DNA of 64,000 nt from Polychytrium aggregatum (Eukaryota; Chytridiomycota; Chytridiomycetes; Polychytriales). The first letter of the stretch is position 1, and each line of letters begins with the position of its first letter. The notes under the pieces are model-generated. The model saw nothing but the letters and a program-made list of their open reading frames with translations, ran no database searches and was not told where the DNA came from. The stretch is from assembly GCF_025602895.1 (NCBI RefSeq), contig NW_026516265.1:186001-250000 (forward strand). Reading direction: 5' to 3'. A program made the position numbers and the translations under genes. Shown here one piece after another: positions 20,603 to 42,682 of this stretch.

Positions 20603-20836
20603 GCTGCGGCTGCGGTGGGCGAAGCTGAATGGGGGTTGGCGATCAGGATCGGAAGGATGGCCAACGGGCCAGCGGAGAATGAGCGACCGATGTGGGTGCA
20701 GCAGAAAACCGCGTCGCACAACGCCCAAAAAGGATAGAGTCTATCCTATGAAAAACGGGACACCCGTGATTTTGACGATTGATCAACTATTTTGCTACCC
20801 AATACAATCGCGCGCTGGCCATGACCATTCTGTGAT

Positions 20837-21577
20837 TTGAATCAAGGACGCCATTGTGGGAATCGCTTCCAGCTCAAGACGTGCTGGATGAGCACCACAC
20901 CAAGTCCCAAGATCCCCGGGTTGGCTCCCTTCCTGCAATATATTCGCCATGTGTTCGATGGAGACATGCTGGAGAAACAGCTGTACTTCAGCCTGACCCG
21001 GCGACGGCGGTTCAAGCGACTCGATCTCTACAGCAAGCGACAGCGCACCGTCCACGAGATGTGCAAGCAAGTCATCGACCAGGCACCAAAGGAGACCGAG
21101 GTGGTGATTGCCTTTGGGAATGCATCCTGGAAACAGGGGAAGGGATATGCATCCAGCCCACGGAGACTCAGGTTCGCCAAGTACTTTGAGCAGTTCCACC
21201 ACCACCAGAGACGACCACCAGACCGATCCGTCTCCAAGATCCATGTGTGCTCGGTGAACGAGTTCAACACGTCCCAGGTGTGCTCACATTGTCGGGAATT
21301 CAAGCGACTTGAGTCACCCGAGTATCTTGATATCGAGAAACCACACTTTGTCCGGAGCTGTGCAAGCTGCCATACACTGTGGGATCGAGACATCAATGCC
21401 TCAAGGAACATGATCTCGGTATGCCGGTCGATCATCGCCACAGGAGATCGACCGGGTGTATTCAAGACCATGCTTCCCAAACCAACCAAAACCACTCGAT
21501 TGCCAACCAGGACGGGAAACAATCTCACGGCCTGCCCGCTGGGCCTACAAGTCAGTCAGCGGGGTTCAGATATCTGA
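20837..21577 (+). CDS. Fanzor (TnpB-like) nuclease, N-terminally truncated
   Basis: Open frame of 246 residues; the first real ATG is at 20888, so the intact protein started upstream. VVIAFGNASW precedes the nuclease core, then comes the published Fanzor signature: TSQVCSHC, a second CASC knuckle, and DRDINASRN. The zinc ribbon therefore has CxxC...CxxC, RuvC-II Glu is probably the E of VNEFNTSQ, and RuvC-III Asp lies in WDRDINA. No RuvC-I Asp segment is present, and the length is about half that of full Fanzor proteins, so cleavage activity is unlikely. In the family these are RNA-guided DNA endonucleases using an RNA made from the element's 3' end. Fanzor is preferred over bacterial TnpB because of the eukaryotic host, the mariner-like ends and the motif spacing. 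Confidence 0.85.
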   Translation: MNQGRHCGNRFQLKTCWMSTTPSPKIPGLAPFLQYIRHVFDGDMLEKQLYFSLTRRRRFKRLDLYSKRQRTVHEMCKQVIDQAPKETEVVIAFGNASWKQGKGYASSPRRLRFAKYFEQFHHHQRRPPDRSVSKIHVCSVNEFNTSQVCSHCREFKRLESPEYLDIEKPHFVRSCASCHTLWDRDINASRNMISVCRSIIATGDRPGVFKTMLPKPTKTTRLPTRTGNNLTACPLGLQVSQRGSDI

Positions 21578-21609
21578 AGCCAGAAAGGAACTGTCCCGTT
21601 TCTTTCTGG
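21565..21609 (+). other. Two adjacent hairpins at Fanzor 3' end
   Basis: TTCAGATATCTGAA (21565-21578) is a perfect palindrome over the stop codon. Directly after it, CCAGAAAGGAAC and GTTTCTTTCTGG (21580-21609) form a 12-bp stem with one G-U pair and a TGTCCC loop. This is where Fanzor/TnpB guide RNAs end. The second hairpin is largely kept in the relic at 35.3 kb. Confidence 0.55.
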
Positions 21610-21811
21610 ACCTACTGTAGATGACGGATCGGATATTCGCACATCCGCCATTCGTAGGGACTGCCCGTCCCTTGGACGCAGGGCAGACGATGAGTCTCCA
21701 GCCCCCGTCGCCGTCGCCTGGCATCCCTTTTCTACGCTGAGCAGCCCCACCACTCTACATATGGCGACATAACCATGTATATTCGTGATCTAGAGCACAA
21801 CAGGGCTGTGT

Positions 21812-27814: not shown

Positions 27815-28110
27815 CAGCGTTTCCAAAATGAAATGGAACACCCCCGTTTTTAACCAGGACAGAGTTTTTTCTGTGACGTGAATACACCCGCCCACTCATC
27901 GCATTCATGGCCAAACGCAGCCCCCTCGATTTCCGCATCGCTGCATTGCGTTGCTACACCCTCATCCATAGCCTGCGCAAGGTCGCCACCATCTTCAGTG
28001 TGTCCAAAAGCACCATTCCCCGCTGGCACTCCGAGACCAGTGGGCAGGTCGATTGCGGAGACCGGGGGGCGGCTGGTGGTCTTCACTCGGAGGCGGGGCC
28101 TTCGAAGATC
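27815..28110 (+). mobile_element. Transposon 5' end with helix-turn-helix frame
   Basis: Starts next to TA (27813-27814) with CAGCGTTTCC, then AAAATGAAATGGAACACCC. The leader block TTTTCTGTGACGTGAATACACCC is shared with the copies at 42.6 and 14.7 kb. No right end is visible, so it is 3'-truncated. It lies about 245 bp upstream of the KDSR start. Confidence 0.8.
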
Positions 28111-28140
28111 TGCCTTGCTGGTCGGGCTCATCCAGAGTGA
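27907..28140 (+). pseudogene. HTH N-terminal fragment of transposon protein
   Basis: ATG 92 bp after the element's first base opens a frame with LDFRIAALRCYTLIHSLRKV then ATIFSVSKSTIPRW, a classic helix-turn-helix seen at the N-terminus of IS630/Tc1/mariner transposases. After RWHSE the frame becomes Gly-rich and stops at 28140, so the rest is lost or shifted. The leader is shared with the Fanzor element, so this HTH could be the N-terminus of the intact Fanzor-family protein rather than of a separate transposase. Confidence 0.65.
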
Positions 28141-28354
28141 GTTCTGCATTTGGCCTCTTGTGCTCGGCAACCGCCGCTCGTGGAACACAGGTGGCAGCCA
28201 CCGTGCCCACTCGATTTCGGCTCTGTTCTTGGCCATCTCCAGTCTCGGTCGCCTGCCCCCAAGCCAGCATCGTCCTCGCCCCGACTTGCGTCGATCTGCA
28301 CCGACCCGCACCGACCCGCACCGACCCGCACCAACCACCCCCGCCGCGCCCAGT

Positions 28355-30053
28355 ATGGTCTATTCTTTCCTCAGCAACCCGGCCGAGTTTCTGGTCGCCT
28401 TCCTCGTCTTCGTCATTGGCGTCCCGGTCCTGTCGCTGTCGTTTTTGATCGTCAAGTTCCTGGTGCTCTCGAGACTGAACCCCAAGAAGCTCGAGAAGGC
28501 CGTCTCGGGTCGACACATCCTCCTGACGGGCGCCTCCAAGGGCCTGGGCCGCTCGGTCGCCTTGATCCTGGCCAAGCACGGCGCCCATCTCACCCTCGTC
28601 GCCCGCGGCAACGACCGCAACGAGGATGGCAAGTCGTCCCTGGACCTGATCGTCGAGGAGTGCCGCCGACTCGCCCCCGCCCATGTCGAGCCCGCCCACA
28701 TTGCCGGAATCCCCACCGATCTCATGAGCTTGAGCTCGACCGTGCAGATGGTCCGCGCTGCCATCCAGGCCCGCGGCCCGTTCTACTGGGTCCTTGGCTG
28801 TGCCGGAGGCTCCGTCCCCAGCTTCTTTGCCGACAGCGTCCCCTCAGACCCGACCAAGTTGGCCCGCTTCGAGCGCGAGATCCAATCCAACTACCTCACG
28901 GCCGCCAACGTCGTTGGTGCCGTCATCCACAACTCCAAGCATGGAGGTCTGGCTGGCAACTTGGACGAGGGTGTCGAGGGCCGCGATCTCTGCGTGGGCA
29001 TCCCGATCCAGGACGCCCAGACCCTGCCCAAGCGCTTCGTCTTTGTTGGCTCGATGCTCTCGATCTTGAGCTTTGCCGGCTATTCATCCTACTCGGCCAG
29101 GTGAGTCCGATACCAAGGTGGCTGAGCGAGCGGCATGTAAAGAGTTGCGAGTTGAGGCTGCAGCCCGCGGCCAGCTGGCACATGCGGGTGGATCGGAAGG
29201 CAGAGCTGGTTCGCCTTGGGGCAGCCTCGCTGATTCGGGTCGCTAAAGAACAAGCGTCGCCCACAAACCGATCCTGCACCGTATCTGCGCTCACCGGTCC
29301 TCCATCATACTGATCTCGTATGCTCTTGCCATCTCGCTGCATCCGTTTTCTGACCGACCGACATTGTCGGACACGCCCCAATGCCATCACTGTCGCCGGC
29401 AACAGCAAGTACGCTCTCAAGGGTCTCGTTGACGGCCTCCGCAACGAATTCATCCCCTTCGGCACCAATGTCCAGCTCTTCATCCCCAACAACATCGACA
29501 CCCCTGGCTACGCCGAGGAGATGAAGACCAAGCCTGAGCTCACCAAGACCATCGAGGGTGTCGCCGGACTGCTGTCCCCCGAACACTGCGCCGAGGTCAT
29601 GCTGGCGCTGATCCTCCATGACCGCCCCCTGATCGCCTCGGACCTGCTTGGCGAAATCCTCCGTATCTACGCCCAGTCGATGTGCGTTCGTCCCAGCCCC
29701 GTTACCGAGGCAAGTATTGACGGCTGCTGCGTTATTCTGTCGAGCGGGCTTGGTAGATGGATTGGTTCGCCGTGGAGAAGCCCAGGGCTGATCTCTGCGT
29801 GCGATTTGCATCTGCATTTCGTGTCTGCTTCACCGCTGCTGTCAACAAGAGACTGACATCCTCTGCGATCTCTTCAACTCATCTACGCGCACATATCTGC
29901 ATTCCGCTCCACATCCGGGGTCGGCACTGCAATCTCCTCACACTCCAGGGCTTGGCTCTGCCCCTGCTCAATGTCATTCAAATTTTCTGGAACTTCTTTG
30001 CTGAGCAAGACTGCGCCAAGTACGGACGCAAGATCCTCGGCAAGCAGCAGTAA
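28355..30053 (+). CDS. TSC10: 3-ketodihydrosphingosine reductase
   Basis: Three exons: 28355-29100, 29406-29709 and 29949-30053, 384 residues. An N-terminal membrane segment (about residues 8-38) is followed by the short-chain dehydrogenase fold: LLTGASKGLGRS binds NADPH, VGSMLSILSFAGY supplies the catalytic Ser, and YSASKYALKGLVDGLRNEF supplies Tyr and Lys, split by the first intron. This arrangement, with the late LPLLNVIQIFWNF hydrophobic segment, fits KDSR/Tsc10, the ER enzyme that reduces 3-ketodihydrosphingosine to dihydrosphingosine in sphingolipid synthesis. The second intron needs a GC donor (GAG|GCAAGT at 29710) to keep the frame. The leader abuts a transposon relic. Confidence 0.92.
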
Positions 30054-34969: not shown

Positions 34970-35331
34970 CTTCTTCCTCGGCCTGATACACACTCGCAAC
35001 CATGACTAAGCAGCGTGCTCACAATGTCGAAAAGTCAAGCGATTCGAGATGACGACTATCATGATGCCAAGAAATCACGGAGGTATACAGATGGTTGAGT
35101 GCATCACACTCCCATTCGAGGCATCAGTGCCAGTCGATTCGTCGACACAGGAGATCGACCGAGTGTGTCCAAGACTACGCCTCCCAAGCCAAGGAAAACA
35201 AAGAGATTGTCAACCGGGACTGGAAACAATCGGGCGGCTTGCTCACTGGGGCTGACGGAAAAGTTTAGCAGACTTCAGGCCTCTGATGCCAGAGAAAACG
35301 GATACTGTCCCGCCATTTTCTGGATTGACTA
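34970..35331 (+). mobile_element. Decayed Fanzor element, 3' part
   Basis: Matches the 3' third of the element at 20.7-21.6 kb. CGTGCTCACAATGTCG (about 35008) corresponds to the first zinc-knuckle codons. A deletion follows, then the ATCAATGCC..AACATG equivalent, then a frame at about 35144-35260 reading TGDRPSVSKTTPPKPRKTKR. The right end, inward on the minus strand, is TATAGTCAATCCAGAAAATGG then CGGGACAG, with TA at 35332-35333. It lies between the two methyltransferase paralogues. Confidence 0.75.
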
Positions 35332-42425: not shown

Positions 42426-42682
42426 CACTGTATTCAGGGGGAAATGAGACACCTGCCCACAACCCATTTGTCAGGGTAGTATGCGATGGCATGCGTCCAA
42501 TGGAGGCGCATGCAATTCAACAGATCACCTCCGAGCGAAGACCACCGGTCGCAGTGCAGCGATGCGGAGATCGAGGTGCTATGCTTGGCCATGATTGCGA
42601 TGAGTGGATGGGTGTATTCAGGTCACAGAAAGAAACCCTGTCATGGCTCAACGGGGTGTCCCATTTCATTTTGGAGACGCTG
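42426..42682 (-). mobile_element. 257-bp MITE with TIRs and TA flanks
   Basis: Bounded by TA at 42424-42425 and 42683-42684. The upper end, read on the minus strand, is CAGCGTCTCC then AAAATGAAATGGGACACCC; the lower end on the plus strand is CACTGTATTCAGGG then GGAAATGAGACACC. The ends agree at about 21 of 32 positions including the TA. Inside, the leader and the start of the HTH frame seen at 27.8 kb are present but with a one-base loss and an internal deletion of about 100 bp, so it is non-autonomous. It inserted about 80 bp after the chitinase stop. Confidence 0.82.

Follow-up and report, generated by a model that had tools for sequence, protein, structure and literature searches.

A Fanzor1 gene remnant between mariner-type inverted repeats in the genome of the chytrid Polychytrium aggregatum

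The genome of Polychytrium aggregatum, a saprotrophic chytrid, exhibits an 881-bp element with mariner-type inverted repeats, a TA on both sides and the C-terminal codons of a Fanzor1 gene. It lies at positions 20737-21617 of the stretch of 64,000 nucleotides analysed here (the window; contig 379, 186001-250000). There can be little doubt that this element is non-autonomous and arose by internal deletion from a Tc1/mariner-type transposon carrying Fanzor1. The features that define Tc1/mariner transposons are all found in the family: a TA target, terminal inverted repeats and, in a relative, a DDE/D transposase. Relatives were searched for in the 64.7-Mb P. aggregatum assembly (418 contigs).

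The left terminal inverted repeat (20737-20762, plus strand) adjoins a TA at 20735-20736, and the right one (21592-21617, minus strand) a TA at 21618-21619, these two TAs representing the target duplication. The sequence thus confirms both ends and their adjoining TAs, as described in an earlier note. The two 26-nt repeats are identical at 17 positions, a level that 8 pairs reached when 200,000 pairs of 26-mers next to TA were drawn at random from the window. The consensus repeat occurs with up to three mismatches at 472 places in the genome (245 + 227) and the left-end pattern at 413, with no occurrence of the reversed control in either case. Because the window copy departs from the consensus by three mismatches in the right repeat and by its outermost left base, it may have lost its mobility. 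The region from the left TA to just past the transposase start codon (20735-20830, plus strand) is as in full-length elements, being 85% identical to the initial 96 bp, counted with the TA, of the element at locus L038. A residual leader follows (20831-20884, plus strand), which in the parent lies between the transposase and Fanzor genes and is here flanked by two deletions; positions 20828-20889 match at 77-80% the leader of the copies in a CACTA-like shell described below. Next come codons from about 631 to 860 of the full-length Fanzor1 protein (20885-21574, plus strand). In all, the element is made up of a left end of about 94 bp, a 54-bp leader, the final 230 Fanzor codons and a short 3' end, and codes for no transposase itself.

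A genome search with the window protein gave 1632 candidates, of which the best 150 were scored. We examined 30 loci fetched automatically (3.7 kb) and 20 loci picked from the best 150 for their long frames (9-9.5 kb), five of which overlap the first 30. Four architectures were found among them. Class A is a full mariner-type element with both repeats and TAs (L038, 3784 bp; L050, 3655 bp), in the order left repeat, Tc1/mariner transposase, Fanzor and right end between the TAs. In class B a long Fanzor gene lies within a different repeat of 3.4-3.8 kb, the CACTA-like shell. Class C is class B with an internal deletion, two of its loci (L023, L024) being without the right end of the B repeat, and class D is the window type. 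The first 30 loci comprise 10 B, 12 C and 7 D (four distinct sites including the window's), and one locus, L021, that fits no class; the 20 long loci are 2 A and 18 B. Intact relatives elsewhere in the genome had been predicted, and L038 and L050 answer to this prediction with both ends, a transposase and a full-length Fanzor between TAs; the search with ends and protein also recovered other copies sharing both ends.

The transposase piece of L038 matches the DDE_3 profile (PF13358) at 1.3e-17, and the class A transposase has a helix-turn-helix-like start (HTH_23, under its cut-off). Relatives with a Tc1/mariner transposase between ends of the same kind thus bear out the earlier reading of mariner-like ends and a TA target. 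The transposase frame is broken in both full elements. A genome search with the transposase gave 478 candidates; the best 150, all but the query, are 95-97% identical, and many of them exhibit open frames of 325 aa. The left-end pattern is located 83-84 bp upstream of at least 45 of these 150 matches (100 of the 413 left ends were compared). For the window element, a transposase supplied in trans is very probable.

TA is present on both sides at all six distinct sites of classes A and D. Empty counterparts were searched for with the joined flanks of 18 insertions (6 A/D, 12 B/C), 40 of 79 candidates being scored. The L050 insertion has four gap-free empty sites (174-180 nt, 97-98% identity), each with a single TA; among the scored candidates no counterpart was found for the other 17 insertions. 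The proposed TA duplication is therefore seen against an empty site for L050; for the window insertion no empty site was found among these candidates, the site being filled in both contigs with the locus (C379 and C124). No conserved dinucleotide or TAM was seen before the TA, the second base before it varying at the six left flanks. An A or T before the TA, present at all six sites in hand, was considered as a TAM and rejected, since it precedes 10 of 16 exact left ends genome-wide. In contrast, a CA is conserved ahead of the left repeat in Spu-1 of Spizellomyces punctatus (TAM CATA).

An open frame of 246 codons spans 20837-21577; it starts with TTG and has its first ATG at 20888. The window protein matches PF07282 in a profile search (E-value = 2.5e-10), and scores 1.9e-6 against the NCBIfam model guided_TnpB, well under the cut-off of that model. 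From gapless matching to relatives and the sequence itself, the alternative RuvC-II glutamate is placed at 21260 and the RuvC-III aspartate at 21383/21389. The C4 zinc finger and RuvC-III are retained. The segment VNEFNTSQVCSHC in the window protein and its relatives places the alternative glutamate six residues before the CxxC zinc finger, an arrangement described as a Fanzor1 fingerprint (PMC10711439). The Fanzor signature read earlier from the sequence is therefore supported by the profile match, the glutamate, the zinc finger and RuvC-III. So is the loss of the N-terminal half with RuvC-I: the DPG motif, present in the full-length copies (residue 561) and in two distant relatives, lies upstream of the retained part and is deleted from the window copy. 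Compared with the search expression given in PMC10711439, the DPG-to-E spacing is longer (192 residues versus 120-160), as is that between the CxxC pairs (22 versus 12-18).

The C-terminal half, as modelled, is a Fanzor fold with the S. punctatus Fanzor as best match, the four best Foldseek matches of the model being SpuFz chains (E-values of 3e-11 to 2e-9). A full-length model, built from 12 near-identical sequences, was discarded (pLDDT 36). Sequence searches against the PDB returned no Fanzor1 match: the window protein alone retrieved the mimivirus protein 9b0l (named Fanzor2) and Cas12m (E-value = 0.06-0.08), and the full-length profile Cas12m alone (E-value = 0.26). At its N-terminus (residues 30-90) the full-length protein of this family has two CxxC...H...C motifs, presumably zinc-knuckle-like, for which a library search gave no match.

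A second Fanzor family (II) is 38-41% identical to that of the window (I) in the N-terminal stretch searched, and frequently exhibits open frames of 809-851 aa. The best 150 of 354 matches in this N-terminal search comprise 78 places of family II and 72 of family I. The transposase is found 1.2-1.5 kb upstream of at least 41 of the 78 and at least 6 of the 72 Fanzor N-termini, compared with 0 and 1, respectively, when the transposase coordinates are shifted by 7.8 kb. Since one transposase family accompanies two such dissimilar Fanzors, an exchange of Fanzor modules is suggested. The C-terminal half of a second-kind Fanzor, 52% identical to family I there and with DPG and the alternative glutamate present, was seen at L046:8295-9455 (minus strand) and is taken to be family II. 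P. aggregatum gene models match the family-I Fanzor at 77-93% over the matched part. Six of the gene models (P0001-P0005, P0010) have Fanzor inside larger proteins (kinase-like, male-sterility type and others), by exon capture or misannotation.

The shell of classes B and C resembles CACTA/EnSpm transposons in that its ends begin with CACTA and are associated with 3-bp duplications; this likeness does not extend to the window copy. All 18 class B loci among the long 20 have the right terminus TTTTTTCATAGTG or one change from it, and 14 of the 18 the left terminus CACTATCAAT. Identical 3-bp flanks (TCA, TTG, TCG, CAT, TAT) occur at 11 of the 15 distinct sites with both ends; of the other four, one has 4 bp duplicated and three none. 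The left shell end occurs at 73 places in the genome (control, 0). A listed family-I match lies downstream of at least 54 of them, and at least 5 of the other 19 were matched in a second list. The left mariner end was not found in the examined copies of this shell, whereas the right mariner repeat persists about 300 bp inside the right shell end. Unlike CACTA/EnSpm elements, the shell could be linked with no CACTA transposase. Of the 29 partial PF02992 matches in the genome, none comes closer than 11.8 kb to a listed left end (73 in all), and no autonomous element was found. The Fanzor carriers named in the parts of PMC3627910, PMC10432273 and PMC10711439 that treat them are Mariner, Sola, IS4, Helitron, MuDr, hAT and Crypton, with CACTA absent. 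We found no report of Fanzor in a CACTA shell in the open-licence PMC literature.

The last 91 nt of the window element and its TA (21529-21619, plus strand) are predicted, from folding and alignment, to form three stems resembling an omega RNA and terminating in the right repeat and TA (MFE -35.1 kcal/mol, z = -2.35; an MFE this low in 2 of 200 shuffles). In the predicted fold the right repeat pairs with a stretch just inside the element. This would agree with the prediction for Fanzor1 that repeat and duplication are part of the scaffold of a three-stemmed guide RNA (PMC10711439). If the RNA extended past the TA as in known Fanzor1 systems, the flank at 21620-21636 (plus strand) would be the guide (PMC10432273, PMC10711439). 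The right ends of five copies gave z-scores of -5.1 to -1.0, that of L014 (-1.0) being not better than its shuffles, and the last 62 nt of 29 distinct copies a mean of -2.5 (range -5.2 to -0.4, mononucleotide shuffles). The right end is not alone in folding: three of six left ends (L012, L014, L015) do so as well, with z-scores of -3.5 to -2.9 on the plus strand. The changes in stem 1 of the right-end alignment, inspected by eye, are not compensatory. Like a ghost copy, the window element retains both ends and the predicted right-end stems and has no working Fanzor ORF. We read it as a ghost-like copy with a guide-RNA-like right end. That this end acts as a working guide RNA is an analogy to the known systems, and we give it somewhat short of an even chance.

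The explanation that we favour as a whole, and hold to be probable, combines a deletion derivative, mobilisation by mariner transposase in trans and a right end of guide-RNA type. The transposase of other copies would move the mini element by cut and paste at TA. Its right end would be transcribed as an omega RNA with the flank after the TA as guide, and this RNA would be loaded onto full-length Fanzor made from other copies. The loaded Fanzor would then cut the empty allele, and repair from the filled allele would retain or spread the element.

The strongest rival is a fossil: a defunct deletion copy that mariner transposase mobilised a single time and that has no RNA or protein role, its right-end structure being a by-product of the symmetry of transposon ends. 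The probability of this lies only just below one half. Open frames are not generally retained: 17 places match the entire junction peptide at 79% or more, and of these 8 have at least 225 codons open and 9 do not (two further places, at 70%, have frames of 120). The damaged right repeat of the window copy, the folding of left ends in three copies and the lack of a visible TAM point the same way. However, the family has many intact members, and the right repeat is conserved within the CACTA-like shell, which has lost the left mariner end and in which this repeat should be dispensable for mariner transposition.

The mini class itself is numerous, its deletion junction occurring at 34 places with up to three mismatches, at 27 with up to two and at 21 exactly (control, 0). 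One might suppose that selection acts on a truncated C-terminal protein made from such copies, which could serve, for example, as a dominant-negative regulator of Fanzor. The dN/dS of the C-terminal part is about 0.24 in seven mini copies (19 pairs) and equally low in full-length ones; for the other classes it is 0.24 (B), 0.23 (C) and 0.36 (the single pair of A). Class C, moreover, retains nearly the same C-terminal stretch as class D. However, the copies in this dN/dS sample were chosen by protein similarity to the open frame, and only 8 of the 17 places retain it. In a tree of the 615-bp C-terminal part, moreover, the classes are intermixed: C as a single clade is rejected (p-AU 0.0115), and D as a single clade, although 48.5 log units worse, is not rejected (p-AU 0.06), and neither is A. 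The low dN/dS is attributable to conversion from full-length copies and to sampling; selection on the truncated protein was accordingly rejected, and we consider it very improbable.

The patchy differences between the window locus on one contig and on the other also weigh against such selection. Among 3738 positions compared, eight differ, seven of them within the 881 bp and six in two patches; these six sites present 12 states, and 11 are found in other copies, the exception being the T of L002 at one site. Other contig pairs vary. Between L003 and L004 there are 26 differences, six of which fall in a stretch of 31 bp that covers the end of the right repeat and the sequence after it, and L015/L019 has 26, of which 15 are inside the element. 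The pair L007/L011 has 55 differences, L023/L024 four, and L012/L013 none inside the element. In 12 B elements the pairwise distances of different parts are uncorrelated or weakly correlated (Spearman -0.47 to 0.34). From the intermixed tree, these patches and the weak correlations, sequence exchange among copies looks frequent.

An origin of the ends from a different superfamily or from unrelated repeats, with the Fanzor remnant there by chance, is scarcely conceivable: the repeats of the window copy match at no more than 17 of 26 positions, but like ends surround a DDE_3 transposase, TA is found at 6/6 sites, the L050 empty sites are precise and the junctions are shared.

A variable block follows the mariner right end in classes B and C. 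Of 33 copies examined, 30 have all three anchors (a few being contig duplicates). In these, the 29 nt after the right repeat and TA occur in 18 forms of four lengths (29, 24, 25 and 17), the next 31 nt in 6 forms of one length and the following stretch in 4 forms of two lengths; the right repeat has 6 forms and the 28 nt preceding it 16. In 12 B elements, pi is 0.155 at +1 to +30, 0.013 at +31 to +130 and 0.023 beyond, and the 28-nt right repeat with TA (0.018) is an island between diverse stretches. Third codon positions reach 0.116; within the shell, pi is 0.06-0.07 over the first 180 bp, 0.008 at left-hand positions 181-360 and 0.039 over the last 30 bp. Divergence in the block is thus similar to that in the Fanzor gene, and most of the shell is far more uniform, so that the cargo would appear to predate most of its carrier.

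The cuts made by SpuFz1 lie beyond its TAM, after bases 16-17 and 20-21 (PMC10432273), distances that would fall within the 29-nt block. The block could be a genomic trace of Fanzor at work, the segment from the ORF to 30 nt past the mariner right end having suffered repeated cuts at the guide position, with other copies as templates for the repair and with the minis supplying extra guides to Fanzor made elsewhere. If true, the end of the omega-RNA scaffold would be constant and the 29-nt guide site variable in sequence and length, and the Fanzor gene would be more divergent than most of its carrier transposon. We consider this unlikely. Slippage between short imperfect direct repeats (AGTATYTCG) would be a simpler source of the block, and ectopic conversion in a shell that has spread recently might also account for it. 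Self-targeting by a fixed guide was rejected as its cause: TGTA precedes the block in nearly all copies (CGTA in one), so a TAM sparing one copy should spare nearly all. We found no report of guide-site variation next to Fanzor right ends in the open-licence PMC literature.

Fanzor1 in TA-flanked or mariner elements, and its ghost copies, have already been published, and the window element is of such a kind. The earlier note's reading of a Fanzor in mariner-like ends therefore stands, as an instance of a type known since 2013. SPu-1 of S. punctatus was described in that year as a Fanzor1 element with inverted repeats and a putative TA duplication, together with Fanzor1 in Mariner elements of other hosts (PMC3627910), and ghost copies of Spu-1 in 2023 (PMC10432273). 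The P. aggregatum family resembles SPu-1, as described there, in its chytrid host, its Fanzor1, its inverted repeats of about 30 bp and putative TA duplication, and its many Fanzor-less or partial copies retaining the right end. According to Saito 2023 no transposase was found between the Spu-1 repeats (PMC10432273), whereas P. aggregatum relatives have a mariner transposase inside the same ends. Unlike the Spu-1 ghosts as reported, the window copy still has 230 Fanzor codons. PUl-1 and PGv-1, as presented by Bao and Jurka 2013, likewise combine mariner transposase and Fanzor1 in one element; the P. aggregatum family differs from them in being high-copy, in its second, CACTA-like shell and in that two Fanzor families, with N-terminal halves about 40% alike, accompany one family of transposases.

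The family bears on the question of why eukaryotic transposons carry RNA-guided nucleases. Since the genome of P. aggregatum holds together a transposase and Fanzor in one element, minis with the right end, empty sites for one copy and a second shell, the idea of homing by repair becomes testable in one culturable chytrid.

The window contains other sequences of the same kind. A related mariner left end lies at 27815-28029, with TA and the first 41 or so transposase codons (78% identical), and beside it a reading frame with a short-chain dehydrogenase domain (27854-29101). A right-repeat-like sequence adjoining TA, with six mismatches, occurs at 35306-35331 (minus strand). Finally, a MITE-like sequence of 257 bp (42426-42682) is flanked by TA and has ends of the same family as the window element.
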